58,015 nt of DNA from a virus: IMG/VR virus record IMGVR_UViG_3300032241_001687, positions 1 to 58,015 of that record. One strand, 5' to 3'. Under the pieces are notes generated by a model. That model searched no databases, was not told where the DNA came from, and worked only from the letters and a program-made list of their open reading frames with translations. Numbering within the stretch: position 1 is the stretch's first letter; every line of letters starts with the position of its first letter. Below are positions 27,647 to 41,381 of this stretch, piece after piece. The translations under genes were made by a program, and so were the position numbers.

Positions 27647-27787
27647 TTACTTTCTAAAAATATTTTTTATTTTTTCAATAGTAGTAAAATTTTTTCTATC
27701 TTCTTTTTTTGCAACGCTATAACCAATTAAAAATGAACCGGTCATAACTGTTAAAATTGCTAAAATGTGCCAAATTAAAAAAGTCAT
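27647..27787 (-). CDS. Small membrane protein (46 aa)
   Basis: Short gene in the 146-base gap between two fibre-type genes. The ATG at 27787-27785 overlaps the stop codon of the upstream gene by one base (TAATG), which implies translational coupling. The 46-residue product begins MTFLIWHILAILTVMTGSFL and has one hydrophobic helix at about 3-25, followed by a basic tail (AKKEDRKN, then KIKNIFRK). Single-helix proteins with a basic C-terminus include small holins, antiholins and membrane modulators, but length alone does not decide. It is preserved in a compact genome with coupled start and stop, which supports a real gene. Confidence 0.6.
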   Translation of the reverse strand: MTFLIWHILAILTVMTGSFLIGYSVAKKEDRKNFTTIEKIKNIFRK

Positions 27788-29520
27788 TAATATGTTCCTC
27801 CGTCTATTGTTGTAATTGCTACTGAACCTGTTGTAACTGTAAAATTATCTGTTGGAAAAAATGCAACACCTAATGCACTACTTGTAGCAATATTTGCATT
27901 AATTGTTACATTGCCACTTGATATAGTAGGTGTAATTGCTGTTCCATCAGCAAATGTTAAAGTGCTATTTAAATTAGTTATATAAGAATGACTATGAGCA
28001 TCTGCAACTGTAAAATAAGGTGTAGATAATTTTGTATTATCAATACTACCTGCTAACATTGCATTTGTAATACCTAATGCTTTAACTCTTAAAGTATTAG
28101 AAAAACTTTCTATAGAACTATTATCTACTTGGACAGCAAGCGTATTTCCATTTTTAGTTAAACCATTTCCTGCAACAACTTCACCTGCACCTGAAAATTG
28201 TGTTACTGTTAATTCTGTAAAACCTATAGTTAAAGAACCAGTGTATGTAAATACATAACCATTTTTAGCATTTGAAGTTCCTTCAGATACAAAAACAAAA
28301 GAACCAGAAGTTAATTGAGCTGGAGTATTTGCATCTGTGGTTCTTGTTAACACCCATGGTGAAGAAACTGAACCAACACTTGTAACTGAGTAAACACCAT
28401 TATATGCATCTAATGCACCAGCAGCAGGTTCATCTTTTACTAATACTCTATCTCCTACTAAAACTGAAACTCCATCAATTACTAAAGTAGCATACGGAGA
28501 AGATTTTGTTATTGTAGCACCAACACCTGCAGTTCCATTATTATAAGTATATGTTCCTAAAGGTTGAGTTGTAGCAACTCTTGCAGCTTGCTTAATATTT
28601 AAACCTTGAGATACTTGATCAACGTAATCTTTTGTTGCTAAAGATAAAGAAGAAAATCCTGATCGATCTTTATAACCAGATGGAACTTTAATTGTTCCAG
28701 TACCGTTAGGTGATAAATTAATATCTCCATTTGTATTATTAGATTGAATTGTATTTCCAGATATTTCAATATTATTTACAATTAAATCTGTTAAACCTGC
28801 AAGTGTAGTAGAAGTAGATCCTAAACTTATAGAAGTAGAACCAATTGTAACTGATGAATTTTGTAATTTTGCATTTGTAACAGTAGAATCTGCTAACTGA
28901 GTAGTTCCAATAGAACCATTTTTAATAGCAAAATTAACGTTATTACCAGAAACGGTAGTTGAAATTTGATTACTTCCTACAAAATCTAAAGTGCTAGTTG
29001 TTGTAAAACTATTTGTTCCTGTATCACCTGCAATTGTAAATGTTGCAGGGACAGTTGCAAAAGATAAAACTCCATTACCATCAGTTATTAAAGTTTGTCC
29101 ATTTGTACCTGTTGTAGTAGGTAAAGTTAAAGTTACATTGTTAGATAAAGAAGAAGGTGCTTTAACTGTAACTGAATATGTTCCATTTAATGTTGCTTCA
29201 TTAAATTTAATTGCTCCACCTGTACTTGGACTATTTCCAACTATAAGTTGATCAATTGCTTTATTTGCATCAACTAAAATAGCACTTGATGCTGAAAGTG
29301 TTCCAGGAGTTGCACCTAAAAGACCTGTAAAATATTTACCTCCAATAGCAACTTGTTGCGATGCATTTCCGTTTCCATCTACTGGGCCTATACCTATAAA
29401 AAGTCTATCTCCTAATGTGTTGTACGTTCCTGCAGCATATGAATACGAAAGTTCTCCGATTTTTGCTGTTGCCGGGGTACCTACACCACTTGAGGTTTTA
29501 ATTTTAATTATAGTTGCCAT
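27787..29520 (-). CDS. Tail fibre-like protein (577 aa)
   Basis: The N-terminus MATIIKIKTSSGVGTPATAK followed by IGELSYSYAAGTYN is an attachment-domain phrase common to phage fibres. Around residues 300-430 is a domain found in many fibres and spikes: GLNIKQAARVATTQPLGTY, then ATLVIDGVSVLVGDRVLVKD, YNGVYSVTSVG and WVLTRTTDANTP. The last part has the VVAGNGLTKNGNTLAVQVDN phrase and a His-containing end (DAHSHSYI). These predict a trimeric beta-rich fibre. It is preceded by an 86-residue gene three bases away and followed by the 46-residue membrane protein gene with a one-base overlap. Confidence 0.75.
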   Translation of the reverse strand: MATIIKIKTSSGVGTPATAKIGELSYSYAAGTYNTLGDRLFIGIGPVDGNGNASQQVAIGGKYFTGLLGATPGTLSASSAILVDANKAIDQLIVGNSPSTGGAIKFNEATLNGTYSVTVKAPSSLSNNVTLTLPTTTGTNGQTLITDGNGVLSFATVPATFTIAGDTGTNSFTTTSTLDFVGSNQISTTVSGNNVNFAIKNGSIGTTQLADSTVTNAKLQNSSVTIGSTSISLGSTSTTLAGLTDLIVNNIEISGNTIQSNNTNGDINLSPNGTGTIKVPSGYKDRSGFSSLSLATKDYVDQVSQGLNIKQAARVATTQPLGTYTYNNGTAGVGATITKSSPYATLVIDGVSVLVGDRVLVKDEPAAGALDAYNGVYSVTSVGSVSSPWVLTRTTDANTPAQLTSGSFVFVSEGTSNAKNGYVFTYTGSLTIGFTELTVTQFSGAGEVVAGNGLTKNGNTLAVQVDNSSIESFSNTLRVKALGITNAMLAGSIDNTKLSTPYFTVADAHSHSYITNLNSTLTFADGTAITPTISSGNVTINANIATSSALGVAFFPTDNFTVTTGSVAITTIDGGTY

Positions 29521-29523
29521 TTA

Positions 29524-29784
29524 TTAATACTCTCCTCCATTGAGTGTTAGATTTCCAGTAGTAGTAATAACATTAGTTGTAGTAAAAAATTTTTGATCGC
29601 TTGCTCTATATTGTAATATAGCGCCATCTGCGATACCAGAAATATCTACATCATTTAAAAGAGAAAGTTTTAATGCCGAATTTTGTGCAGTTAAATTATT
29701 TAAACTGCCTGTAGAAGGTAGTGTTACAGATACCTGTTGTGGTTGTAATGGACTTCCTTGAATATTTGCAACAATATAAGACAA
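29524..29784 (-). CDS. Small fibre-associated protein with TTG start (86 aa)
   Basis: The 86-residue product begins SYIVANIQGSPLQPQQVSVT after the start and is Leu/Ser/Thr-rich with the phrase GAILQYRASDQKFFTTTN, typical of phage fibre proteins. There is no ATG in frame near the beginning. The TTG at 29784-29782 has a strong GGGAG site six bases upstream and a late-promoter box 22 bases upstream, so TTG initiation is well supported. It lies three bases before the 577-residue fibre gene; the pair may be a split fibre or a small partner. Confidence 0.68.
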   Translation of the reverse strand: MSYIVANIQGSPLQPQQVSVTLPSTGSLNNLTAQNSALKLSLLNDVDISGIADGAILQYRASDQKFFTTTNVITTTGNLTLNGGEY

Positions 29785-29806
29785 TGATTTCTCCCTATTT
29801 ACTGTA

Positions 29807-29814
29807 TATTTATA
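29807..29814 (-). promoter_or_regulatory. T4-type late promoter box upstream of the TTG-start gene
   Basis: Exact TATAAATA on the minus strand, 22 bases before the TTG start of the 86-residue gene. It overlaps the 3' arm of an AT-only inverted repeat (29810-29818 with 29829-29837; nine-base perfect arms, ten-base loop). Confidence 0.55.
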
Positions 29815-29841
29815 ATATTTTTTAGTTTATATTATAATATA

Positions 29842-30177
29842 TTATGATGTACTTACTTGAGGTCTAACAGTCATTATTCCTTCAACAATTCTTGTTGATT
29901 GATTAAAGGAATCAGTTATTTTTACATCATATACATAACGTGCAGCGTCCAAAGCCGCAGTTTGTGAAGCAGTTAAAGAAAGAGAAACCATTCCCGTAGA
30001 AGTATTTATAGATGCGGTTATAGGTGTTTTAGTTGCAGTAGATGAATAACTTTTTGCCATATTAGCAGTAACAGTATATCCTGTTAGATTTAAAGCATTA
30101 CCTACTAAATCTTTTACTGAAATATCCGAGGAAAAAGTTGCACCTTGGTCAATATTTAAGTTTGCTATTGCACCCAT
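29842..30177 (-). CDS. BppU-N-like small baseplate/fibre protein (111 aa)
   Basis: The pattern is that of the N-terminal domain of phage upper baseplate proteins (BppU-like): a start NLNIDQGATFSSDISVKD, then LTGYTVTANMAK, ITASINTSTGMVSLSLTASQ, and DAARYVYDVKITDS, VEGIMTVRP. This small immunoglobulin-like sandwich attaches fibres to baseplates in other phages. Here it is a stand-alone 111-residue protein. It follows the DUF6447-type gene with an eight-base gap and sits in the fibre island, so an adaptor role is plausible. Family call is by pattern only. Confidence 0.65.
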   Translation of the reverse strand: MGAIANLNIDQGATFSSDISVKDLVGNALNLTGYTVTANMAKSYSSTATKTPITASINTSTGMVSLSLTASQTAALDAARYVYDVKITDSFNQSTRIVEGIMTVRPQVSTS

Positions 30178-30477: not shown

Positions 30478-30885
30478 TTAAATATCATTTTTGTATAAAA
30501 ATTCTTTTTTGTAGTATTCTTTTATATCTGGAACTATACCTTTTGTTTCATCTAAAGGCATTATTTTATTTAATATATCATCATAAGTTTTTGTATCAGT
30601 ATCATAAGTTTTAAAATATGGATCATTTCCATATAATAAATCTTTATCGTTTAAAAGTTCAAAAAAATCTTCATTAAAATCTTTTGATAACCAATAAGCA
30701 TAACAAATAGCCACAACATAACTTTTAGAAGGATATATAAAAGGCATATCTTTATTATAAAAATATCTAATAGCATTTTCGACTACATCATTAGAAAATT
30801 CCACTGGTAATTTATTAAGATCATCACCATGTTCTGTAATAATTCTATGATATAGCTCTTGTCTGATTTTCCATTCTTTGTGCAT
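30478..30885 (-). CDS. Unknown protein, end of the modification operon (135 aa)
   Basis: Not recognised. A 135-residue, aromatic and acidic protein, predicted largely helical, with phrases RQELYHRIITEHGDD, SYVVAICYAYWLSKDF and EDFFELLNDKDLLYGND. It starts within the radical SAM gene at 30845-31789 (41-base overlap), so it belongs to the same translationally coupled operon and is its last gene. It could be a partner, immunity or carrier protein of the modification system; no motif decides. The promoter for the next genes begins right after its stop. Confidence 0.65.
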   Translation of the reverse strand: MHKEWKIRQELYHRIITEHGDDLNKLPVEFSNDVVENAIRYFYNKDMPFIYPSKSYVVAICYAYWLSKDFNEDFFELLNDKDLLYGNDPYFKTYDTDTKTYDDILNKIMPLDETKGIVPDIKEYYKKEFLYKNDI

Positions 30886-31789
30886 AGTAATCTAATAATC
30901 CTTTATATCCATTACAACCATTATTCAAATTTTTTACATAACGATAATGTTCTGTTAAACAATGACCAAAATATTTACATTGTTTACATATATCAGAAAC
31001 ATTTTTTATAGGTTCGTTGTTTGCCCATTTTACATATTCTCTAAAACTATTTAATTCTAAAAAATATTCTTTATCTTCTTTATCAAATTCTAATACTGCA
31101 AAATTGCCATTAGGTGTTATATAAACATGATTATTTGAAAATGCATTATATTGTTTATTTAAACTTTTAATTATTTTACTTTCATTTATAAAATCAAATT
31201 TTTTTTCTATTTTACTATCTAACCAACGTTGAACAAATATTTCAAAATCTTTATGAGTAACGTTATAAGAGTTTGATTGATTTATAGAATACGGTTTAAT
31301 CTCTACACTTTCTATACTTGAACATAAATTTAATTTTTGTATCATATCATCTACATTCATCTGAATAACTTTTTGACTTGCAAGAATTAATACTGCAATA
31401 GGCACTTTACTTTGTAACATATTATTAAAAACTAAATCAGATTTTTCTCTTGCTTCAAAATCATAACTGACACTTAAATAACAATCTTTTTCAAAAAAAC
31501 CTTCATGTAACATTGAAAAATTTGTTATAATATTAATTTTACCAGTATAATATTTTTTAATTACATTTTTTAAATTTAAAAAATAATCTTTTTTTAATGC
31601 ACCTATTTCACCTCCATATAAATCAATCCATTCTATATTTCTAACTTTACTAACTTCTTGCAATCGTATATCTAATATAGGTATTGGTATTTTTTTTGTA
31701 TCACTTAATTGATTATCAGTAAGATAACAAAAGTTACATCTAAAGTTACAAAAGTAACTTGGATTAATTGAAAGAGTTATATTATTCAT
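30845..31789 (-). CDS. Radical SAM protein D
   Basis: Radical SAM enzymes bind an iron-sulfur cluster and split S-adenosylmethionine to make a radical that alters peptides, RNA or small molecules. Here the cluster motif is PSYFCNFRCNFCYLTDNQ with Cys14, Cys18 and Cys21 in CxxxCxxC spacing, counting from the ATG at 31789. An upstream TTG that would add 11 residues is less likely. IDLYGGEIGAL holds the SAM-binding GGE. The C-terminal ~60 residues have further cysteines in a SPASM-like set (ICKQCKYFGHC, later NNGCNGYK) that could hold auxiliary clusters. Most relatives act on peptides. The start overlaps the upstream oxygenase by eight bases. Confidence 0.82.
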   Translation of the reverse strand: MNNITLSINPSYFCNFRCNFCYLTDNQLSDTKKIPIPILDIRLQEVSKVRNIEWIDLYGGEIGALKKDYFLNLKNVIKKYYTGKINIITNFSMLHEGFFEKDCYLSVSYDFEAREKSDLVFNNMLQSKVPIAVLILASQKVIQMNVDDMIQKLNLCSSIESVEIKPYSINQSNSYNVTHKDFEIFVQRWLDSKIEKKFDFINESKIIKSLNKQYNAFSNNHVYITPNGNFAVLEFDKEDKEYFLELNSFREYVKWANNEPIKNVSDICKQCKYFGHCLTEHYRYVKNLNNGCNGYKGLLDYYAQRMENQTRAIS

Positions 31790-32363
31790 CTTTATATAAA
31801 AATAAATCAACAGGCATTGCAAGTCTTAATTTACCATAGTAAATATCTACACTGTGATAAACAAAACTTGGAAATATAATTATATCACCTGTTTGAGGAG
31901 TAAAATGTAATGATGAAAACCAGTTTTTAAATCTATCTTTTTCATAACCTCTATTTGCATTAAATCTAGGATCTTGCATAATTAATGCACCTCCTGAAGT
32001 TTTTTCTTCTGCCATTAGATAAAATACTGCACTTATTTGAGAACCAGAATGATTATGTTTTGCCATAGAATAACCTGTACCCCAACCTGTTATCCATGCT
32101 TTAAGTTTATATTTACAAGAACTTATATCAAAATTTAAACTTGAATTTAAATAATTATTAAAAGAGGGTAAAACAATTTTATTTTTAAAATCATCTAAAT
32201 TTTTATCGTCAAATAAATTTAAAACAATAGATTGATCAGACTGTTTATTTGCATCACTACAATTTGCAATTAAATATTCTGTAGTTTTATTTAATAAATT
32301 TATATCTTTAATTGTGTCTTTAAGTATATCTGTAGACCAATAATGATTTAAACCTTCTTTCAT
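31782..32363 (-). CDS. 2-oxoglutarate/Fe(II) oxygenase-like protein C
   Basis: The double-stranded beta-helix core is visible: AKHNHSGSQISAVFYL (101-116) with candidate iron ligands His103 or His105, GGALIMQDPR (124-133), the turn TGDIIIFPSFVYHSV (158-172) with distal ligand His170, and KLRLAMPVD with Arg180 at the place for 2-oxoglutarate. This arrangement matches the PF13759-type oxygenases frequent in marine T4-like phages. Such enzymes hydroxylate proteins, peptides or small molecules. The gene overlaps both neighbours (four bases upstream, eight downstream), placing it in the operon with the radical SAM genes. Substrate is unknown; the CHxS protein nearby is a candidate. Confidence 0.8.
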   Translation of the reverse strand: MKEGLNHYWSTDILKDTIKDINLLNKTTEYLIANCSDANKQSDQSIVLNLFDDKNLDDFKNKIVLPSFNNYLNSSLNFDISSCKYKLKAWITGWGTGYSMAKHNHSGSQISAVFYLMAEEKTSGGALIMQDPRFNANRGYEKDRFKNWFSSLHFTPQTGDIIIFPSFVYHSVDIYYGKLRLAMPVDLFLYKDE

Positions 32364-32881
32364 TGTGTTAAGCTTTCATTTATATAATAATTAAAACTTG
32401 CAACACGTCTAGGTAATTTAAAATTTAATGGTGTTACAATATGTTCAAATTTTAAACTTTGATTCATAATAATAATATCGTGTTGTTGTGGATAATAAGA
32501 ATTAATTAATTCTTTTGTTTGAGTATTTCTAAATTGAATTGCACCACCAATATCTTTATCCATTGTATCAAAATAAACAAGAATACAAAGATTTGGGCCT
32601 TCAACTAAATCATTATGCCAAACTAATGTTGCATCGTCCATACCATTAACTAAATCAATTTTGTCTACACTTTTATAATTTGGATCTATTTGTTTAACAT
32701 AAGTATTACTTAAATATTCTTGTACTAGTTTTAGTTGATCAATAAGTTTATTGTCTTTAATTGCAAGTTGCAAACCCATATGACATGCATCATACCATTT
32801 AACTCTATAGATATCTATAAAATTTAAAGGTACAACATCATTTATTTTATAATGACCATTTGTCAAAAATTCATTTAACAT
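32360..32881 (-). CDS. 2-oxoglutarate/Fe(II) oxygenase-like protein B
   Basis: Contains the classic facial triad: LVWHNDLVEGPN with His89 and Asp91 (H-x-D), then the sheet GGAIQFRN (112-119), HDIIIMNQSLKFEHIVTP with distal His147, and Arg158/159 (LPRRVASFNYYI) for the 2-oxoglutarate carboxylate. At 173 residues it is a compact core without extra domains, like prolyl-hydroxylase-like enzymes. It hydroxylates an unknown target. It overlaps the upstream radical SAM gene by seven bases and the next oxygenase by four (ATGA), typical of coupled translation. Confidence 0.83.
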   Translation of the reverse strand: MLNEFLTNGHYKINDVVPLNFIDIYRVKWYDACHMGLQLAIKDNKLIDQLKLVQEYLSNTYVKQIDPNYKSVDKIDLVNGMDDATLVWHNDLVEGPNLCILVYFDTMDKDIGGAIQFRNTQTKELINSYYPQQHDIIIMNQSLKFEHIVTPLNFKLPRRVASFNYYINESLTQ

Positions 32882-33969
32882 AATACACTTTCATCTATAT
32901 AAGGTGTTACTTCAATATTTAGTTCGTTTGCTTTAAGTATATCTGGAGCTATAGTTTTCATCAATTTACAATGTTCTTCTACTACATTATGTTTTTTAAA
33001 ATCTTTTATAGTTTTTCTGCACCCATTACATATTTGAAACATAGGACAAGTCCAACATGCATTTTTCATAGATGTTATATTTAAATCTTCTCTTAATGGT
33101 GTAAAAAATTCACCTTTCATTTCTCTTTCAAAATCTATTGATTTATCTTTATCGTCACCAAATGCACCACAAGAATAATAATCACCACTAGGATTTAATG
33201 CACGAATACCTGCATCACAATTACGATTTTGAGGACAAGTAGTTCCATTACCTCGCAATCTTTGTATCATTTGTTTTGTATTAAATTCCCATGATGTAAG
33301 ACCACGTTTCCATATTTCTACATAAATTTTATATATTTTACTTAAAAGATAAGGTTTATCTTGATCGCCACTTGACATAGCATAATTTAATTTACATTCT
33401 ACACCTGTTTTATTATTTCTTGCAAAATTGTGTAAAGTGCCTTCGGGTATAACATCTTCACTCATACGTTTTGCCAACTCTACGTTTTTTATTGCATCTT
33501 TTTCATTTTCAGGTACGATGACCGATATAAAATCTGGTCTATATCCACAATATTCTAACATTGCATCAGAACATTTCCAAAAATCTTTTTCCGTAAATTC
33601 AGTATAATCACCTTTTAATCTACCACCACCATATTGAAAAGAAGTTGTAACTCCAACTCTTTCATTGTTAAATAAATCACTCCACATTTCTGGTTTTTTA
33701 TAAAAAGGCCAAAGATTAGTTGTCAATGCAATAGAAGTATCATAATCATGTTCATCTAACCATCTAATTATAGTCCAATAATATTCTGGATCCATCATTA
33801 AAGGATCTCCACCATTTACAATAATTGTTTTTGTATTTGGAAATCTTTTTAAAAATGTAAATATTTGTTCATGTTCTAATAAGTCTTTTTTATGTTTTGC
33901 AATTTTTGTAGAAGAACAAAACGTACATTTAAAATTACACAATTCAGTAGGTTTTATAATTAAGTCCAT
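32875..33969 (-). CDS. Radical SAM/SPASM protein C
   Basis: Starts at the ATG 33969; a TTG nine bases upstream is unlikely. The motif KPTELCNFKCTFCSSTK carries the cluster-binding Cys11, Cys15 and Cys18. The SAM-binding NGGDPLM follows. The C-terminal part has two cysteine groups: CPQNRNCDAGIRAL and YYSCGAFGDD, then CWTCPMFQICNGCRK and a final His-Cys (EEHCKL), a SPASM-type arrangement for two auxiliary iron-sulfur clusters. Members act as peptide maturases, e.g. thioether or epimerisation enzymes. This is the longest of the four radical SAM proteins here. It overlaps the unknown 191-residue gene (33960-34532) by ten bases. Confidence 0.85.
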   Translation of the reverse strand: MDLIIKPTELCNFKCTFCSSTKIAKHKKDLLEHEQIFTFLKRFPNTKTIIVNGGDPLMMDPEYYWTIIRWLDEHDYDTSIALTTNLWPFYKKPEMWSDLFNNERVGVTTSFQYGGGRLKGDYTEFTEKDFWKCSDAMLEYCGYRPDFISVIVPENEKDAIKNVELAKRMSEDVIPEGTLHNFARNNKTGVECKLNYAMSSGDQDKPYLLSKIYKIYVEIWKRGLTSWEFNTKQMIQRLRGNGTTCPQNRNCDAGIRALNPSGDYYSCGAFGDDKDKSIDFEREMKGEFFTPLREDLNITSMKNACWTCPMFQICNGCRKTIKDFKKHNVVEEHCKLMKTIAPDILKANELNIEVTPYIDESVLC

Positions 33970-34532
33970 CTTATCCAATAGTTACCATTTCTTTTAAAAC
34001 CAAATTGTTGCATCAATTCTTTATGATAAGGTTCATGTTGTATTTTTTTTTGATTCATAATTAAATGTAAATGTTCAAAATAAGAACCTGCAGGGACTAT
34101 AATTTTTTTATTACCAAACAGTTTAATTATATCACTCCACATTTTTCTAAGTAATTGACGTATTTTTATTTTACTCCTTGACTTTAATACACCAGAATAT
34201 TTAACACTTCCTATTATAATTTCATTATCATAGATATGTATCATTGCAACACCTTTTTCTAATTTCCAATCATCGTCACAATTAATCCACATATCTTCAC
34301 CTTTTGTTTTTTTTACTTTTTCATATATATCAGGATCAGTTTCTTTTGTACCCCACCATATAAACATATGTGCTTGTTTATCGCATATTCTAGGCACAAA
34401 TGGTGATCTAAGTGGTAATGTGTCTAATTTAACATCTACCCCATAAGGCAATTCAAGTTTAGCGAGCGATGTAGTTTTTTTGTACTCGTACATCTTCGAT
34501 ATATTTGTGCGTAAGTTTATAGACACACTCAT
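33960..34532 (-). CDS. Unknown protein, possibly GNAT-like, in the modification operon
   Basis: I chose the ATG at 34532 because GAGAGG lies six bases before it; an earlier ATG at 34559 and a later one at 34493 are also possible. The product (190 residues) has the phrases VAMIHIYDNEIIIGSVKYSG, RQLLRKMWSDIIKLFGNKKI and a final LMQQFGFKRNGNYWIRW. The end, with Phe-Gly-Phe then Gly and Trp-x-Arg, recalls the C-terminal part of GNAT acetyltransferases, but no clear acetyl-CoA pyrophosphate loop is visible. The gene starts 74 bases inside the preceding radical SAM gene, an unusually long overlap. A tailoring or carrier role is possible. Confidence 0.6.
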   Translation of the reverse strand: MSVSINLRTNISKMYEYKKTTSLAKLELPYGVDVKLDTLPLRSPFVPRICDKQAHMFIWWGTKETDPDIYEKVKKTKGEDMWINCDDDWKLEKGVAMIHIYDNEIIIGSVKYSGVLKSRSKIKIRQLLRKMWSDIIKLFGNKKIIVPAGSYFEHLHLIMNQKKIQHEPYHKELMQQFGFKRNGNYWIRWT

Positions 34533-35511
34533 CGAGTTCCTCTCTATATTTGTAATCATGGTTCATAAAACAACCTAGTGTACATCTATCTAAAAACTCA
34601 CACGATGCACAGTTGTATTTTTCTAAAAAACTATTTTCAATAATACTATTATCTTTTTTCTTTATAGGAGATTTATACATACTTAAAGATTTTTTATCTT
34701 GTACAAGATTACCACACTGACATAATGTACCATCTGCAAGAACTAATTTACTTACTCTACATGATGCATAATTGCGTTTATTAAATATCCAGTCTTTTAT
34801 AGGGTGTACATTTGGATATTTGTCAACACATAATTTAAAAAATTTTAATAATAATTCGTCTGATGGCATATTATGTTCTGCATGTTCATCTGGCATATAA
34901 TAATCAAAAAAAATATATTTACCTTTATTGTAAAGATAATCAAAATATTCATCACCATGTTTTAAGTAATATTCTATATTTGGTTTTGTAAGTAAACATG
35001 AAAAACATGTAATACGATTATCAAAATAATCAACATTCATTTTAAATATTTCAAATTGTGATTTATTAAAACGACCTCTAGGATCATATGAAGTAGTTAA
35101 TCTTGCAGATATATTATTGTCTTTTGAATACTGTAACAAATCTTCTATTTGTTCAATACCATTTCTATCAGTAACTAAGTTTGTGACCCAATTCAAAGAA
35201 TATTTTTTATTATATTTTTTTGCTATTTTTGATATACCTAAAGATAATTGTTTGTATGCTTCGTTGATTTCTTTTGTATAGATTGCAGGTGCAAAAACTT
35301 CACCACCCATTAAATTTAAAGTAATTGAATTTTTATTTTCTTTACTTACAAATTTATCAATAGGTTCTAGTTTATTTAATATTGTATCTAAACCTATTTT
35401 ATCTGAATGATTTTGCCAACAAAAAGAGCAACTTAAATTGCAGTATTCAAATAAATGAATTGTATATTCTTGTTCAGGATCACGTTTAGGATCAATCAAA
35501 AATTCACGCAT
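34459..35511 (-). CDS. Radical SAM protein B
   Basis: The 350-residue product has the cluster motif HLFEYCNLSCSFCWQNHS with Cys24, Cys28 and Cys31, and NLMGGEVFAP as the SAM-binding glycine segment. The C-terminal 90 residues hold a Cys-rich set: YASCRVSKLVLADGTLCQCG and CASCEFLDRCTLGC, likely two auxiliary clusters as in SPASM or Twitch enzymes. The N-terminal Arg/Asp/Pro stretch (REFLIDPKRDPEQEY) is not part of the core. It is followed by the overlapping 190-residue gene and preceded by the 369-residue unknown with an 11-base gap, the only real gap in the operon. Confidence 0.84.
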   Translation of the reverse strand: MREFLIDPKRDPEQEYTIHLFEYCNLSCSFCWQNHSDKIGLDTILNKLEPIDKFVSKENKNSITLNLMGGEVFAPAIYTKEINEAYKQLSLGISKIAKKYNKKYSLNWVTNLVTDRNGIEQIEDLLQYSKDNNISARLTTSYDPRGRFNKSQFEIFKMNVDYFDNRITCFSCLLTKPNIEYYLKHGDEYFDYLYNKGKYIFFDYYMPDEHAEHNMPSDELLLKFFKLCVDKYPNVHPIKDWIFNKRNYASCRVSKLVLADGTLCQCGNLVQDKKSLSMYKSPIKKKDNSIIENSFLEKYNCASCEFLDRCTLGCFMNHDYKYREELDECVYKLTHKYIEDVRVQKNYIAR

Positions 35512-35522
35512 AAAATAAAATC

Positions 35523-36632
35523 CTATAATAATTTAAATTTGGAAAGCGTGTCTATATCGTTATTTCTTTTAAAATTTAAAACGTTTTGTATAAAAACATA
35601 ATTTACATTTTCACTATCAGATTTAGGAACTAAACAAGTATCAAATGGATTTGCAATAACAAAATATAAAAAATTATCTAAATCAGTATCTGAAAGAGAT
35701 GTTTGTGCAGCTAATGGTAAATAATCAAATAGTTTAAATATATTTCTATCTATTTCCATAGCTTCAACATTTGCAAAAATGTTTATAATTGTATTTTTTA
35801 ATCCATTTAATTTATCTGCAGATAAACCTACTAAATTTGGTAATGTTAATATACCAGTAGAAAATTTAGATGTCCAAATAGAAGGATCTGCGTATGATGC
35901 CAATGATGCAACATTTTTAATTGGATTTACGTCTGTTAAATCCAAATCTGCATCAGTAAAATTTAATGCAGATTGAAATAATTTATTATTTAAATTATAT
36001 AAAACCATTTCTTTATTTTCTGCAAAAATATCTTTAAACCATCTATATAAAAACAAATGAACTGTAGATTTTAATTGTGTTTTATAATTTGTAGAACCAC
36101 TAAAATAATCACTTAACATATATTCAAATGATAACGATAATGATAAATTTTTAATAGTTTGTCTATCATCTGCAGAAATTGTAATTGCATTAAATGCGGC
36201 AGCAATAATATCACTTGAAATATTTGTATTAATTTGAACTGGATTTGTAGGTTGTACAGTTTGTTCAACACTATTTCTTAGTAGTCTTTCTTTATATATT
36301 GTTATGTTAAATAAATTTTGAAATCCAGATAAATCTAAATTAGGTAATATTATTTTAAACCATTTTGTAAAAAATTTTAAATATGCATCTGTATCACAAT
36401 AAATTATTATTTTTTTATTACTATTTTTATTATAAGTATTTAAAGAAGTAATTAATGTTAAAAAATCAATATCTTCAATTTTTTTTGCAAATTGTATTAA
36501 TTTGCCGCTTGTAACTTTTTGTAAATTGTCTAATATATCAACACCATTTATATTAGATATAACAACTCTATCAAAATTTAAAGATATTTTATCATCAAAA
36601 TCTAAATATGTTTTGTTAAAAAGATGCAACAT
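35523..36632 (-). CDS. Unknown protein in the modification operon (369 aa)
   Basis: Not recognised. The 369-residue product has an N-terminal alpha/beta-like half (KKIIIYCDTDAYLKFFTKWF) and a mostly helical C-terminal half rich in Leu, Asn and Asp (KNLSLSLSFEYMLSDYFSGS, YRWFKDIFAENKEMVLYNLN). No Cys cluster or known catalytic motif is seen, and no signal peptide. It overlaps the preceding 230-residue unknown gene by 17 bases, so both are co-translated with the candidate substrate. Possible roles are a recognition or scaffolding protein, or a large second substrate; neither is supported by motif. Confidence 0.65.
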   Translation of the reverse strand: MLHLFNKTYLDFDDKISLNFDRVVISNINGVDILDNLQKVTSGKLIQFAKKIEDIDFLTLITSLNTYNKNSNKKIIIYCDTDAYLKFFTKWFKIILPNLDLSGFQNLFNITIYKERLLRNSVEQTVQPTNPVQINTNISSDIIAAAFNAITISADDRQTIKNLSLSLSFEYMLSDYFSGSTNYKTQLKSTVHLFLYRWFKDIFAENKEMVLYNLNNKLFQSALNFTDADLDLTDVNPIKNVASLASYADPSIWTSKFSTGILTLPNLVGLSADKLNGLKNTIINIFANVEAMEIDRNIFKLFDYLPLAAQTSLSDTDLDNFLYFVIANPFDTCLVPKSDSENVNYVFIQNVLNFKRNNDIDTLSKFKLL

Positions 36633-37308
36633 TTTCTATAAATTCCTTATTTTTTATTTTAGCTTCTATAAATTCATTACCTTTTCCAGCTGCAATTGCC
36701 CAAGTTATTAAAAACATAGGATTTTTATCAACCGCCCAATAACTATACATATTTTTACCTTTAAACATATAATCATCAAAATAATGTGTATAAAATTTTA
36801 ATTTACTAATTATTTTATTATAAAATAAATAAAATCTTTCATTTTTTAATAAACTTATAAAATTAATACCAAAAATTTCATTTGTGTCATTTTTTTCAAA
36901 ACTTTTTGCATAATTTCTAAATTCTTCACTATTAATCATATACATATTATAAACTATTAAACTTTCTAATTTATTACACCATTTATCAATAATTTTTTTA
37001 TTATTATCTATAAAATCATCAAAAATTTTTATTTCATTTAATTTTTTATAACGTAATAAAATATCTATTGCAATATTTTCTAATGCTGATATATTAACCA
37101 ATGATGTAGAATTAAAATATTCGTTTATTAAATCTATATCAATATTTATAACATCACAAGGTAAATCTAAATTGCTTAAATAAGTAATAAAATTTTTTCC
37201 TTTTAATTCACTTTTTTCATAATCAATTTTATAAAATATATTTTTATCTGTAAAATATTTTTTTAAATTATCTACTGAAATAGGTACTGTTGTTTCTATT
37301 ATATTCAT
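36616..37308 (-). CDS. Unknown protein next to the CHxS protein (230 aa)
   Basis: Not recognised. Very Ile/Asn/Lys-rich (INIDIDLINEYFNSTSLVNI and LKFYTHYFDDYMFKGKNMY), predicted mostly helical. Its ATG overlaps the stop codon of the CHxS protein gene by one base (TAATG), so translation is coupled to that of the candidate substrate. A Trp-rich patch MYSYWAVDKNPMFLITWAIA could be a hydrophobic surface or membrane-associated helix. It may be a chaperone or recognition partner for the substrate; there is no motif evidence for an enzyme. Confidence 0.65.
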   Translation of the reverse strand: MNIIETTVPISVDNLKKYFTDKNIFYKIDYEKSELKGKNFITYLSNLDLPCDVINIDIDLINEYFNSTSLVNISALENIAIDILLRYKKLNEIKIFDDFIDNNKKIIDKWCNKLESLIVYNMYMINSEEFRNYAKSFEKNDTNEIFGINFISLLKNERFYLFYNKIISKLKFYTHYFDDYMFKGKNMYSYWAVDKNPMFLITWAIAAGKGNEFIEAKIKNKEFIENVASF

Positions 37309-37883
37309 TATCTTCTACCTCTCGAATTATGACAAGAACTATGACAACTTGCATGACATATGTTAACTGTTATAGTAGTTATATTAGCTCTTTGATTATT
37401 ATATTCGGTTTGCATATTTGTAAAAAATGTTTCTAAACCCGAAGCAGTTATTGTATTACCACTACTTACATTAGAATTATTTACCGAATTTAAAGTTTGT
37501 CTGTAACTTGTATTCATATACGCAACAGATGTGCTATTAAATATTATTCCAGGTGAACCATAACTTCCTGTATTACCTCCACCACCTGTAACGTTTAATA
37601 TTGCATTTAAATTTCTTATATTTGTATAAAGTTGAGTTTCCGCAAGTAAAGCAGATACTATATTTGCAGCAGTTATATTAGGAAGTCCTGGTTGTTGTAT
37701 AGAAGAACCTGTTGCCGTTACTGTTGTTCCTGAAGTAGTGCCTCCAAATTGAGATGAATCAAATTGTGAAAAAGGAAGAACATCTGTACCCCATACAATA
37801 TTTGCATTTGCAGTAGCAGTTACAAAATCTGCAAATCTGTTCACAATATTTTGCGAAGTAATAGGATTATTTAACGTTGTCAT
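37308..37883 (-). CDS. Candidate modified protein with C-terminal (Cys-His-x-Ser)x3
   Basis: The 191-residue product has a folded-looking N-terminal ~170 residues (NIVNRFADFVTATANANIVW, then ILNVTGGGGNTGSYGSPGII) and a short tail CHASCHSSCHNSRGRR. The tail is three tandem Cys-His-x-Ser units at 176-187 plus Arg-Gly-Arg-Arg. All three Cys and all three His of the whole protein are in this tail. A modifying-enzyme-rich operon with a short, strongly patterned C-terminal Cys/His/Ser segment is the layout of a ribosomally made peptide or a protein activated by a radical SAM maturase. The start overlaps the radical SAM/SPASM gene upstream by 17 bases. It resembles His-Xaa-Ser repeat substrates but has Cys before each His. 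Function is unknown; metal binding or virion display are options. Confidence 0.75.
   Translation of the reverse strand: MTTLNNPITSQNIVNRFADFVTATANANIVWGTDVLPFSQFDSSQFGGTTSGTTVTATGSSIQQPGLPNITAANIVSALLAETQLYTNIRNLNAILNVTGGGGNTGSYGSPGIIFNSTSVAYMNTSYRQTLNSVNNSNVSSGNTITASGLETFFTNMQTEYNNQRANITTITVNICHASCHSSCHNSRGRR
37323..37358 (-). repeat. 12-base coding repeat for the Cys-His-x-Ser tail
   Basis: Three 12-base units on the minus strand, each TGTCAT followed by six bases (GCAAGT, AGTTCT, AATTCG), encode Cys-His-Ala-Ser, Cys-His-Ser-Ser and Cys-His-Asn-Ser. The variable base choice in the third and fourth codons with fixed Cys-His codons shows constraint on the protein level. Confidence 0.85.
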
Positions 37884-38904
37884 ATTTTATATTACTTTTT
37901 AATTCCTTCATTAAACTTTTTGGTGCGCCACATATATTATCTTGCCAAGCAAGTTGATGACAATCACCTCCACAAAACTCAAAAACTTCGCAAGAAAAAC
38001 ATAAAGGATTTCTTGCACTTTCACAAGCAATGTTTTCTAATCTTATAGGACTATTTATAACTGTTTGTATATCATCATTTATAGTACCAAAAGAAAACTC
38101 GGGTGCAGAATTAGGACAACCTGATATAGTACCATCTGCGTTTATTGTAAATATTTTCTGTTCACAGTCTCTACAAAATGTACCACCTTTTAAAAAACCT
38201 GTTTCAAATTTATTGTATATTACTTCTAACGTTTCATTTTCAAACCAATTTCTACAATTAAATTCTTTAGATTGATGGTGCATTTTTAAAAACCATTTGT
38301 CTTGTTCAATATTATTAGGAAATATTTCAGGATGTAATTTTGCATTACCATTACCGGTTAATCGTTCAAATGATATTTCTTGTACACCTAATTCTTTAAT
38401 CCATTTTAATAAATCAATAGGTTCCATGGCAATAGTATCTTTAGTAACACTTATAAACAATTTGATTGTAACGCCTTTATTTAATAAATCTTTTACATTT
38501 TTTTCCCATAAATTATATTGTGCATCATTTTCAAAACGTATTTTTGGATCCCAACTTGTACCCATACGATTGTTTAATGGCCCTTTTATAAATTCGTAAT
38601 GTTCGTCTTTTAATTTAAAAACAAGATTTGAAGTTATACCCCATGACATATTAGGCCATAAATCTTTACATTCTTCATATACTTTATTCATATGAGATAC
38701 AGGCGCTAAGAATGGTTCGCCACCATGAAATTCTAAATGAATAGTATCTTCATCTTTATTAAAATATTGTCTAAATTTTTTTATAAAATCTATTGTTTTA
38801 AAATGATCAAAGTAAATTTTTTTACCATTGATACCATTTGTAAAACAATGTTTACAATTTAGTTGACAAGTTTCAGTTGTTTTTAAATAAAATATCCAGT
38901 TCAT
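37867..38904 (-). CDS. Radical SAM/SPASM peptide maturase A
   Basis: The best match to a classical peptide-modifying radical SAM enzyme in the cluster. The motif KTTETCQLNCKHCFTN carries Cys13, Cys17 and Cys20; FHGGEPFLAP at 59-68 is the SAM-binding site. The C-terminal SPASM domain starts at CRDCEQKIFTINADGTISGC (244-263), with further Cys at 294, 302, 305, 311, 315 and 325 (CFSCEVFEFCGGDC), enough for two auxiliary [4Fe-4S] clusters as in anSME-type maturases. Its stop overlaps the start of the CHxS protein by 17 bases, so enzyme and candidate substrate are made together. I infer it acts on that protein, for example by oxidising or cross-linking Cys or Ser; direct evidence is lacking. Confidence 0.9.
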   Translation of the reverse strand: MNWIFYLKTTETCQLNCKHCFTNGINGKKIYFDHFKTIDFIKKFRQYFNKDEDTIHLEFHGGEPFLAPVSHMNKVYEECKDLWPNMSWGITSNLVFKLKDEHYEFIKGPLNNRMGTSWDPKIRFENDAQYNLWEKNVKDLLNKGVTIKLFISVTKDTIAMEPIDLLKWIKELGVQEISFERLTGNGNAKLHPEIFPNNIEQDKWFLKMHHQSKEFNCRNWFENETLEVIYNKFETGFLKGGTFCRDCEQKIFTINADGTISGCPNSAPEFSFGTINDDIQTVINSPIRLENIACESARNPLCFSCEVFEFCGGDCHQLAWQDNICGAPKSLMKELKSNIKYDNVK

Positions 38905-39350
38905 TCATCATATCCTATACTTAATGCCCAGGTATCAGGTAAACTATTTACTTGATGTGGAGTTCCTTTAGGTATTGATATACCTTGACATTCTTTAATT
39001 AAAATTGGTTCATCATCTATAAAAACATTTTTTGCACCTTTTATTACATATAAAAAAACATTTACATCATCAGTATGTTTTGGAAAAGAAAAACCACCTA
39101 ATTGATTAAAAAATAATTGTACACTATTTACTTTAATTTGTAACTGTATATCTTTTAATAAAGATTTATGATAATTTTTATTATCTAAACCTTCAACTTT
39201 TATATTATTATATTTTTTAAAATTTTCAAGCCACTTACGATAAGACATAACATCTTTAACTCGAAAATCTTTTAAATTTTCATCTATATAAACAAGATCA
39301 TTATTTTCGTATCGTTCAACTGAAAAAATTTCATCAAATAAATTAGACAT
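38901..39350 (-). CDS. Cupin-type protein with iron-binding motif
   Basis: The 149-residue product has a C-terminal cupin barrel: FSFPKHTDDVNVFLYVIKG (88-105) with His92-x-Asp94, then KNVFIDDEPILIKECQGISI and PKGTPHQVNSL with His132, ending WALSIGYD. The H-x-D...H set is what non-heme iron cupins and JmjC-like hydroxylases use; the N-terminal ~85 residues are less clear and may dock a partner. It overlaps the radical SAM A gene by four bases (ATGA) and the upstream oxygenase by eight. I infer an oxidative tailoring enzyme or metal-binding helper. Confidence 0.75.
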   Translation of the reverse strand: MSNLFDEIFSVERYENNDLVYIDENLKDFRVKDVMSYRKWLENFKKYNNIKVEGLDNKNYHKSLLKDIQLQIKVNSVQLFFNQLGGFSFPKHTDDVNVFLYVIKGAKNVFIDDEPILIKECQGISIPKGTPHQVNSLPDTWALSIGYDE

Positions 39351-39963
39351 TTATATTAATTGTATGTAACTGTAGATTTACTACTAACGTTATTCTTTCT
39401 TCATCTCCACTGTAAGGAGTTACTTCGTGCCATACAATATTAGGACATACAATTAATCTATTTTTTTTAGTTTCTACTTTAAAGTATTTTGGATTAGAAT
39501 ATTCTTCTGTATAATCAAATGTAGGATCTATTAAAACTAACTGACCACCATTTTTTTTGTTATCTATATCATTTAAATAAAATATAGAAAATGCAGTAAT
39601 ATATGCATGAGTATGAGCACCTTTATAATCACCTTTTCTCATAAAAGGAAATTTACCAAAAGATAAAGCTAAATTTTTTGATATTTCATCTTTTGTTAAT
39701 TTATTATTATCATAAGATTGTGCCAATTCATAAAATCCATCAATAAACATATCTTTTAATTGTTTAATTTCAGAATATTTTGAAATATTTTCTTGTGTAA
39801 AAAAAGGTTTTGTTTGATTGCCTGCCTCAGAATAATTACCATCAACTTCTAAAAGTCTTGAAGAAAAATGAGAACGTACTATTGATTGGACAGTGTTATT
39901 CCAATCATCAGATAAATTAAAATCTTTTATTAATACATTTGTTTTGAAGGGTGTATAAATCAT
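39343..39963 (-). CDS. 2-oxoglutarate/Fe(II) oxygenase-like protein A
   Basis: The catalytic core is KGAHTHAYITAFSIFYLND (114-132) with candidate ligands His117/His119, GGQLVLIDPTF (139-149), CPNIVWHEVTPYSG (173-186) with distal His179, and Arg190 (EERITLVVN) for 2-oxoglutarate. It resembles the oxygenase at 31782-32363 in layout but is divergent in sequence. It is the first gene of the coupled operon, following the fibre-like gene by 20 bases. Those 20 bases hold a near-consensus late box (AATAAATA, 39969-39976) only five bases from the ATG; no strong ribosome-binding site is seen. Substrate unknown, likely protein or peptide. Confidence 0.8.
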   Translation of the reverse strand: MIYTPFKTNVLIKDFNLSDDWNNTVQSIVRSHFSSRLLEVDGNYSEAGNQTKPFFTQENISKYSEIKQLKDMFIDGFYELAQSYDNNKLTKDEISKNLALSFGKFPFMRKGDYKGAHTHAYITAFSIFYLNDIDNKKNGGQLVLIDPTFDYTEEYSNPKYFKVETKKNRLIVCPNIVWHEVTPYSGDEERITLVVNLQLHTININV

Positions 39964-39983: not shown

Positions 39984-41381
39984 TTAAAGTATGATTGCTT
40001 GTATAATATTTGATGTACCTGTTGATGTATTACTATCTTCTAATGCAATTGCAAATATTTTTTCTTTCCAAACTTCACCTACTTTACATGCAAGTCCATT
40101 ATTATCTGCGATTAATTCATCACCTTTTGAAATAAATCCATTTACTTTAACTTTTACTTTACCTTTTAATGCAATTGGTTGACCTGTACCTTTGGCGTTC
40201 ATTAAATATGCAGGATTTTCTGAAATAACACCTATTGCTCTTTTACCAATGGAACTTGCAGTTACTTCTGCAGAACCACCTACCATCATTACTGTTCCAA
40301 CTTCATATTGTTGATCGGTAGCATAAATTTCAGCTAAATCGGCATAATCTGCACTTAATGATGTTGTATTTAAAATATTTAAATTTGGATTATAAGTTAA
40401 ATCTATATCTGTTCTTAATGCTTGATTTCCTGAATTACTAGCAACAAAAGGAACATAATAATTATTGTTATCTATATTTTGAGGTGTTACTGTTACCGTT
40501 GAAGCAATACTTGCAGTTCCAGTAAAACTAGTTGCAGTTACACTATTAAATGTAATAGAATCTCCTGCTACATTTAATTTTGAAGCTCTTATAGTATTAT
40601 CAGCAATATTACTATTTGTAATTGTACTAACTGCTATCATATTACCAGTAACAGTTCCACCATCAGAATTAGTTATAAGTGTACCTGTTATATTTGGTAT
40701 TGTAATTGTTCTATTTGCAGTAGGATCAGCAACTGTTAATGTTGTTTTATAAGCATCGTTTGTCGCACCTTCAAATTGAATATTTCCTGCAGTAGACAAA
40801 TATAAATTACCACCTAATGTAGTTAATCCTGTAACTCCCAAAGTTCCTGCAATAGATGTGTTACCAGTTGAACCTGCAACTGTAAATTTATTTGTATTAA
40901 TAGTTATATTTCCAATAGATGTATAAGAAGTTGCAGTTAGAGCACCTACGCCTAAAGTACCTGATGTAATTAAATTATTATTAGAAAATGAAATATTTCC
41001 ACCAGAAGAAGAAATACTTCCGCTAGATAAAGATAAATTAGAAACATTTAATTGCGTAGTAAGTGTAACTGTATTAGGTAAACCTATTGTTACAGTAGGC
41101 CCTGAACCAATAGAAACGGTAGTTTGATTATTAGTTCCATTAATAACAAGATTTGTTCCTGGGCCAATTAATTGAGTGTTATTTAAAGAATCTTTAATAT
41201 TAAAAGCAAAAGTACGTGCAACAAATTGAGAAATTTGAACAATAGCACCCATAACAGAGGTTGCATTTAATCCAGTTGTTGTTAATAAAGCGGGATCTCC
41301 AAAATCATTTGCTGTTAAGCTATTAAGCTTAATTCGCATTACATCTAGTGTATCTGTTGTATTAATTACTGTGACTGCCAT
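39984..41381 (-). CDS. Fibre-like virion protein with YADLAE-type C-terminal domain (465 aa)
   Basis: The N-terminal ~330 residues are repetitive Ser/Thr/Asn/Gly-rich beta phrases (NLSLSSGSISSSGGNISFSN, GNIQFEGATNDAYKTTLTVA). The C-terminal ~125 residues form a separate domain that begins SADYADLAEIYATDQQYEVG, then GTVMMVGGSAEVTASSIGKR and VKVKVNGFISKGDELIAD. This domain is found at the end of many marine phage virion and fibre proteins, where it may serve in trimerisation or as an intramolecular chaperone. It is three bases after the 73-residue coiled-coil gene and just before the modification operon, so its transcript may read through into it. Confidence 0.75.
   Translation of the reverse strand: MAVTVINTTDTLDVMRIKLNSLTANDFGDPALLTTTGLNATSVMGAIVQISQFVARTFAFNIKDSLNNTQLIGPGTNLVINGTNNQTTVSIGSGPTVTIGLPNTVTLTTQLNVSNLSLSSGSISSSGGNISFSNNNLITSGTLGVGALTATSYTSIGNITINTNKFTVAGSTGNTSIAGTLGVTGLTTLGGNLYLSTAGNIQFEGATNDAYKTTLTVADPTANRTITIPNITGTLITNSDGGTVTGNMIAVSTITNSNIADNTIRASKLNVAGDSITFNSVTATSFTGTASIASTVTVTPQNIDNNNYYVPFVASNSGNQALRTDIDLTYNPNLNILNTTSLSADYADLAEIYATDQQYEVGTVMMVGGSAEVTASSIGKRAIGVISENPAYLMNAKGTGQPIALKGKVKVKVNGFISKGDELIADNNGLACKVGEVWKEKIFAIALEDSNTSTGTSNIIQAIIL

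Follow-up and report, generated by a model that had tools for sequence, protein, structure and literature searches.

The 58,015-base virus record IMGVR_UViG_3300032241_001687, analysed at its full length and referred to here as the window, carries at 30478-39963 a cluster of thirteen open reading frames (ORFs), all of them on the minus strand (Table 1). The cluster encodes four radical S-adenosylmethionine (SAM) enzymes, designated rSAM_A to rSAM_D, three 2-oxoglutarate (2OG)/Fe(II) oxygenases, a JmjC-like "cupin", four proteins of unknown function and a 191-residue protein with a Cys-His repeat tail, the CHxS protein. We consider it likely that these genes specify a phage-encoded maturation pathway which modifies the C-terminal tail of the CHxS protein, itself a component associated with the phage tail or its fibres.

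An earlier note on this DNA had described a packed thirteen-gene operon inside a fibre island, and indeed all 13 ORFs were found between fibre genes. As for the spacing reported there, the single 11-nt gap was recovered (35512-35522). The overlaps between neighbouring genes, however, ranged from 1 to 101 nt when the longest-ORF starts were used, and the previously given maximum of 74 nt is obtained if g06 begins at an in-frame ATG 27 nt downstream. The same window encodes a portal protein, a tail sheath, a terminase large subunit and a baseplate wedge, and the cluster is placed among fibre and baseplate genes, within the part of a T4-like phage genome that encodes structural proteins. On its upstream side the flanking fibre gene adjoins a DUF4815 protein (41604-47840), while the fibre-type genes on the downstream side span 27787-30177. 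The G+C content of the cluster was 24.8%, as compared to 31.0% in the rest of the window, in which no tRNA or Rfam element was detected.

Table 1. Genes of the CHxS cluster and its flanking fibre genes, in window coordinates.
Feature	Description	Position	Strand	Profile match or remark
Fibre gene	Flanking tail-fibre gene, 465 aa, upstream of cluster	39984..41381	-	PHROG tail fibre and weak Peptidase_G2 match
g13	2OG-Fe(II) oxygenase (2OG-FeII_Oxy_5)	39343..39963	-	PF13759 39.2 bits, cut-off 27
g12	JmjC-like/cupin Fe(II) oxygenase	38901..39350	-	PF07883 27.3 bits, cut-off 27.2
g11 (rSAM_A)	Radical SAM/SPASM, directly upstream of CHxS gene, 17-nt overlap	37867..38904	-
g10 (CHxS protein)	191 residues; N-terminal folded domain (to about residue 172) and C-terminal tail; proposed substrate	37308..37883	-
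Tail of g10	CHASCHSSCHNSRGRR, residues 176-191, exact C-terminus of g10	37311..37358	-	Family consensus (CHxx)3RxRR
g09	230-aa conserved protein, candidate substrate-handling partner	36616..37308	-	PHROG 20767
g08	369-aa conserved protein	35523..36632	-
g07 (rSAM_B)	Radical SAM with auxiliary Cys	34459..35511	-
g06	199-aa accessory protein	33960..34559	-	In 21 motif-selected loci
g05 (rSAM_C)	Radical SAM/SPASM-like	32875..33978	-	PF04055 35.4 bits, cut-off 29.5
g04	2OG oxygenase-like	32360..32881	-	PF13640 22.4 bits, below cut-off 27
g03	2OG-Fe(II) oxygenase	31782..32363	-	PF13759 49.8 bits
g02 (rSAM_D)	Radical SAM, one extra Cys set	30845..31822	-	PHROG 1802, E 9e-30
g01	135-aa conserved protein	30478..30885	-	23 invariant columns, 14 members
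Fibre-type gene	Flanking fibre-type gene, 577 aa, downstream of cluster	27787..29520	-	PHROG 8745 tail fibre

The CHxS tail and its linkage to the enzyme genes

Loci selected by the DNA pattern of the tail are circular with respect to tail invariance, and the test was repeated on loci collected with rSAM_A and on loci collected with g09, the latter gathered without use of the tail motif. The ending CHxxCHxxCHxxRxRR was encoded in all 78 g09-collected loci with enough upstream sequence. Across the 68 distinct CHxS genes of this sample the Cys, His and Arg residues of the tail were invariant while its codons varied synonymously, which rules out that the tail is conserved as a DNA element rather than as a protein feature. 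The last residue of the repeat was Ser in 57-66 of the 68 genes and otherwise Asn, Ala or Gln. Thus, the Cys-His-x-Ser tail of the earlier note stands as a C-terminal set of Cys-His repeats; its Ser position is not strict, and the strict motif is (CHxx)3RxRR. In 59 of the 68 genes the N-domain contained no other Cys. Every invariant column of the family fell within the tail in the motif-selected sample, for which the g09-collected loci provide the fair test, and the complete ORFs listed from the tail-pattern scan had the motif at their exact C-terminus. PHROG 35144, a family of unknown function, matched 40 of 41 family members.

An AlphaFold2 model of the CHxS protein showed a confident domain (mean predicted local distance difference test score 90.0), with values above 90 in the folded part and of 52-57 in the tail, which is probably flexible or disordered. 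Comparison of the predicted N-domain fold with the PDB gave no match. In a viral structure library it matched its own family and three long proteins of 504-660 residues from one uncultured myophage (UniProt A0A8S5USJ8, A0A8S5USJ7 and A0A8S5USV2 from Myoviridae sp. ctijX18). Two unusual alleles were observed: at L117:7832-8515 the tail has grown to nine or more CHxS/CHSN units arranged in several blocks and still ends in CHSARGRR, and at L010:4201-5569 (L070 being the same allele) the gene is split in two, so that the first ~58 residues are joined to a fibre-like domain rich in Gly and the remainder with the tail forms a separate ORF.

The genes around the tail were conserved as well. In the g09-collected loci, rSAM_A and the cupin gene were present upstream in 73 of 73 cases each, g08 lay downstream of g09 in 73 of 77, and rSAM_B, rSAM_C and at least one 2OG gene were found in 69 of 69, 67 of 69 and 60 of 69, respectively. 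A fibre gene of the window's type preceded rSAM_A in 60 of 67 loci. The rSAM_A-collected loci agreed with the tail linkage; those without a tail nearby were either cut by a contig end or belonged to the few loci L299-L304, one contig of which shows the tandem-pair architecture described below. The earlier note had made its proposal depend on finding this neighbourhood in other phages, and the linkage holds in both collections. It had also proposed a multi-step cluster combining radical and oxygen chemistry, and this gene set is indeed conserved around the CHxS protein. Gene counts in the motif-selected loci were made by best-seed assignment, in which the radical SAM families are still confused in some divergent loci.

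A search with the tail as a 47-base DNA pattern matched at least 119 stretches of viral DNA, but only 15 in 257 Gb of species genomes. Of these 15, 11 were genuine clusters, all on metagenome-assembled contigs that may themselves be phage. The contigs L129, L132, L137 and L140 and the other genome-contig loci, which are binned in Rickettsiales, Bacteroidetes, Halobacteriovoraceae or unclassified metagenome-assembled genomes, are probably mis-binned phage contigs. Chance was rejected as an explanation of the tail pattern, the two matches in isolate genomes (Pseudoclavibacter and Thauera) being those that stood without the enzymes. Outside viral contigs the system is almost absent. Searches of phage records by tblastn with the CHxS protein and with a synthetic tail peptide gave no match, and a peptide-pattern search of viral contigs for the protein gave no relative; such searches are defeated by the divergence of the N-domain and the shortness of the tail.

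Cultured carriers are the phages Atu_ph07, Phosso, FLC6, FLC8, S13 and DT01, among which Atu_ph07, Phosso, FLC6/FLC8 and DT01 are distant jumbo phages with the same cluster. Their hosts belong to Agrobacterium, Sinorhizobium, Burkholderia and Pseudomonas, so that the system is not only marine, the setting in which the earlier note had expected it. A second architecture contains a tandem pair of CHxS proteins of 124-140 residues together with extra radical SAM genes, and one phage record (G008) has both architectures. In this 151-kb record the two clusters (L142 3116-12089 and L143 2124-14847) lie ~18 kb apart and have separate sets of radical SAM genes. The number of enzymes per cluster ranged from 4 to ~9 radical SAM proteins and from 1 to 4 oxygenases. 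In relatives whose rSAM_A is 92-95% identical to that of the window, identity was only 48-72% for the CHxS N-domain, 53-55% for the cupin and 28-31% for g08; since the identity of rSAM_A is far above that of the others, the clusters are mosaic. The mosaicism is sharp between window positions 37308-39963 and the loci L226-L234, which points to recombination within the cluster. The cluster of the Burkholderia phages encloses two dihydrofolate-reductase-like genes (L003:12930-14145; FLC6 gp77-gp78 in L126).

Enzymes and accessory proteins

The presence of four radical SAM proteins with a CxxxCxxC motif and C-terminal Cys clusters, as read by the earlier note, was borne out by family alignments. 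The four proteins form separate families of 45-116 sequences, each with the CxxxCxxC motif at 100% and 4-8 further conserved Cys residues (8 auxiliary Cys in rSAM_A and 4 in rSAM_D). Pfam, NCBIfam and PHROG matches back the assignment. The Pfam Radical_SAM cut-off was passed by rSAM_C, while rSAM_A, rSAM_B and rSAM_D scored below it, at 22.7, 25.1 and 19.4 bits. For rSAM_A, the SPASM domain exceeded the cut-offs of two curated models (TIGR04085, 35.9 versus 27 bits; PF13186, 25.6 versus 21.5 bits). Among curated profiles, rSAM_A and rSAM_C were nearest to the peptide and protein maturases PapB, DynA and anSME. The identity of rSAM_C in the cultured jumbo phages was 51-63%, and the true start of g02 may be the ATG at codon 12.

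Iron ligands were conserved in all three of the 2OG/Fe(II) oxygenase-like proteins that had been noticed previously, as HxD..H..R in g04, HxH..H..R in g03 and HxH in g13. The latter two pass the PF13759 cut-off and yet bear HxH where HxD is typical, while g04 has the HxD..H..R pattern and scores below the PF13640 cut-off. The g12 product had been taken for an iron-type cupin. Its iron ligands were confirmed (H92-x-D94..H132 invariant and K107 at 98% among 94 members), but with this combination of HxD..H and Lys it resembles a 2OG oxygenase of the JmjC type and not a classical cupin. Its score against JmjC_2 was 18.6 bits (E 0.0014), below the cut-off of 22, and its Cupin_2 match lay at the cut-off. 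Concerning the remaining products, g09 has a confident predicted fold for which a PDB comparison gave no match, a PDB sequence search with g08 gave no relative of note, and profile searches with g08 and g06 yielded nothing useful.

Virion association and the proposed maturation pathway

The earlier note favoured a virion link from the position among fibre genes. A second line of evidence came from the cultured phage Atu_ph07, for which Attai et al. 2018 describe three clusters of virion proteins defined by mass spectrometry, one of them being CDS 170-215 (PMC6102473). The lower boundary of this cluster falls exactly at the CHxS gene, RefSeq gp170. Four further gene products bear out this numbering, namely the baseplate protein gp181, the portal gp198, the prohead core protein gp204 and, at the upper boundary, the major head protein gp215. 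This suggests that the CHxS protein was detected in Atu_ph07 particles. Together, the fibre-gene flanks and the cluster boundary support the virion link, and we regard it as strongly suggested that the CHxS protein is located in the virion and, likewise, that it is the substrate of the enzymes.

We infer the order of the steps, the kind of bond and the purpose as follows. The substrate would be a small, independently folded protein of the tail or fibre apparatus with a flexible (C-H-x-x)3-R-x-R-R tail. Late in infection, rSAM_A and the other radical SAM enzymes would form bonds on the Cys and His residues of this tail. Enzymes of the PapB and DynA types can bond Cys or His side chains, although the similarity seen here is far below the curated cut-offs. 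The JmjC-like and 2OG oxygenases would add hydroxyl groups to the tail, at His, at Arg or at the small x residues, and the probable task of g09 and g08 is to present the substrate or to shield it. Once complete, the protein would become part of the virion, and there its modified tail would most likely help the particle to contact the host surface or to pass through it. More tentatively, and with somewhat less than even confidence, we propose that in many phages radical chemistry equips the end of a virion protein with a Cys-His structure that is multiply crosslinked and hydroxylated. Such a protein would be the first part of a virion whose maturation depends on radical SAM enzymes, and it could provide a metal site, a reactive group or an adhesive tip at the point of host contact.

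Several observations weigh against the maturation pathway as a whole. The Atu_ph07 boundary is circumstantial, and gp171 and gp172, which are not thought to be structural, also lie inside CDS 170-215. Because the N-domain is without a known structural relative, the virion role of the CHxS protein rests on location. For g01, g06, g08 and g09, searches of Pfam, NCBIfam and PHROG profiles gave no match to a known function. Finally, the neighbouring fibres could be a target of the enzymes, either in addition to the CHxS protein or in its place. Conceivably, the substrate is another one, such as these fibres or a molecule of the host surface, and the CHxS protein is a carrier, a scaffold or a donor of metal or clusters, with a tail to which the enzymes dock. 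The cluster is flanked by several fibre genes, the number of enzymes is large for three repeats, and the Ser position is not strictly needed, all of which would fit such a role. However, the sole unvarying part of the CHxS family consists of reactive Cys and His residues plus Arg, as expected of a modified core, and no other recurrent Cys-rich partner was seen in the clusters examined, though no systematic search for one was made. On balance we hold this explanation to be unlikely.

Equally to be weighed is a phage-borne ribosomally synthesised and post-translationally modified peptide (RiPP), in which the N-domain is only a leader and the modified C-terminal peptide is cut off and released as a toxin, signal or metallophore. 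The enzyme types do resemble RiPP maturases, a Cys-rich C-terminal core beside a SPASM radical SAM enzyme is RiPP-like, and the HxS system discussed below offers a parallel. Nevertheless, ORF and profile scans recognised no protease or exporter gene in the cluster, and the N-domain is a confident 170-residue fold instead of a short leader. Moreover, an invariant core joined to a variable N-domain is the reverse of the usual RiPP pattern, and both the position among fibre genes and the Atu_ph07 boundary count against release of the peptide, which we judge quite improbable. Most improbable of all appears a cassette for host takeover, auxiliary metabolism or anti-defence (viperin-like nucleotide chemistry) without any protein maturation. 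Metabolism was proposed for the radical SAM genes of Campylobacter phages by the authors of their genome paper (PMC2853527), and weak matches to viperin profiles were obtained in our searches; the latter mostly cover the generic radical SAM core, and membership of the viperin (pVip) defence enzymes was rejected (NF038283, 29-32 bits versus a cut-off of 180). Such a cassette would also leave the invariant tail and the fibre-locus position unexplained.

If tail maturation of the CHxS protein is correct, a chemistry known to date from peptide natural products and enzyme cofactors is used by phages to complete a protein of the particle, and virion assembly and host recognition would gain a new layer. 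The phage radical SAM gene groups, described as highly unusual in genome papers from 2010 onwards, would also acquire a substrate and a purpose, and new tailoring enzymes would become available whose tag, (CHxx)3RxRR, is exceptionally well defined. The claim is directly testable in the cultured phages Atu_ph07, Phosso, FLC6/FLC8 and DT01. For the unmodified tryptic tails we calculated M = 3311.375 Da for Atu_ph07 gp170 (NMWYQSANVTASIGVDFCHSSCHASCHNSR) and M = 2510.158 Da for the CHxS protein of DT01 (AQVLTLQNTICHTSCHTSCHSAR).

Comparison with known systems

Radical SAM gene groups have been published for the phages 332-Vera, where eight such genes lie within the structural cluster (PMC12390700), FLC6 (PMC8066314), S13 (PMC11898562), RP12/RP31 (PMC5468394) and CP220/CPt10 (PMC2853527). 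In the passages found in these papers the enzymes are only listed or remarked upon, and the CHxS protein, its tail and a maturation role go unmentioned. FLC6, S13 and DT01, the last a relative of 332-Vera, carry the CHxS system. Among open-licence papers we found no description of the tail motif or of the system, and a description elsewhere is possible.

The nearest analogue is the HxS system, composed of HxsA, the radical SAM pair HxsB/HxsC and HxsD (TIGR03976-TIGR03979). In both systems a protein whose C-terminal motif is repeated and contains His is encoded next to several radical SAM enzymes, and C-H-x-S contains H-x-S, which is present in this form in most CHxS members, the last position of the repeat varying to Asn, Ala or Gln. 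Unlike HxS, the CHxS cluster is phage-borne, lies in a fibre locus and includes 2OG and JmjC-like oxygenases as well as g08 and g09, and its CHxS protein has a Cys in each repeat and an R-x-R-R end. Membership in HxS was rejected, since the HxsB and HxsC models (TIGR03978 and TIGR03977) gave 33.1 versus 370 and 30.7 versus 267.9 bits, and the HxsA and HxsD models (TIGR03979 and TIGR03976) had no match at E<=1 with the CHxS protein, three of its cultured-phage homologues, g08, g09, g06 or g01. The product of HxS is given as unknown in the one paper found to discuss it (PMC9062424).

PapB (ranthipeptide) and DynA (dynobactin) were the best or near-best curated profiles, with 49 bits for rSAM_A against PapB and 43 bits for rSAM_C against DynA. 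They share the SPASM-type Cys pattern, whereas the scores are far below the cut-offs of 340 and 450, and the substrate proposed here is a folded protein with an invariant tail. With anSME and other radical SAM protein maturases, to which rSAM_A and rSAM_C are similar at 36-41 bits (cut-off 349), the cluster would have in common that the modified residue belongs to a folded protein. The target-site motif of anSME is C/S-x-P/A-x-R, and in contrast to anSME systems the cluster has neither a sulfatase nor such a site. JmjC hydroxylases of the YcfD/MINA53/NO66 type act on His or Arg of proteins. The g12 product resembles them in its HxD..H plus Lys arrangement, its JmjC_2 similarity being weak, and its action on a protein side chain is putative. 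As in RiPP clusters, an encoded precursor is strictly linked to tailoring enzymes; unlike in these clusters, the precursor is a 170-residue fold rather than a short leader peptide that is cut and exported, and no protease or exporter was recognised. To our knowledge there is no precedent for the maturation of a virion protein by radical SAM enzymes. We conclude that the phage system is real and widespread. It is kin to radical SAM peptide and protein maturation, and its action on a virion protein is strongly suggested.

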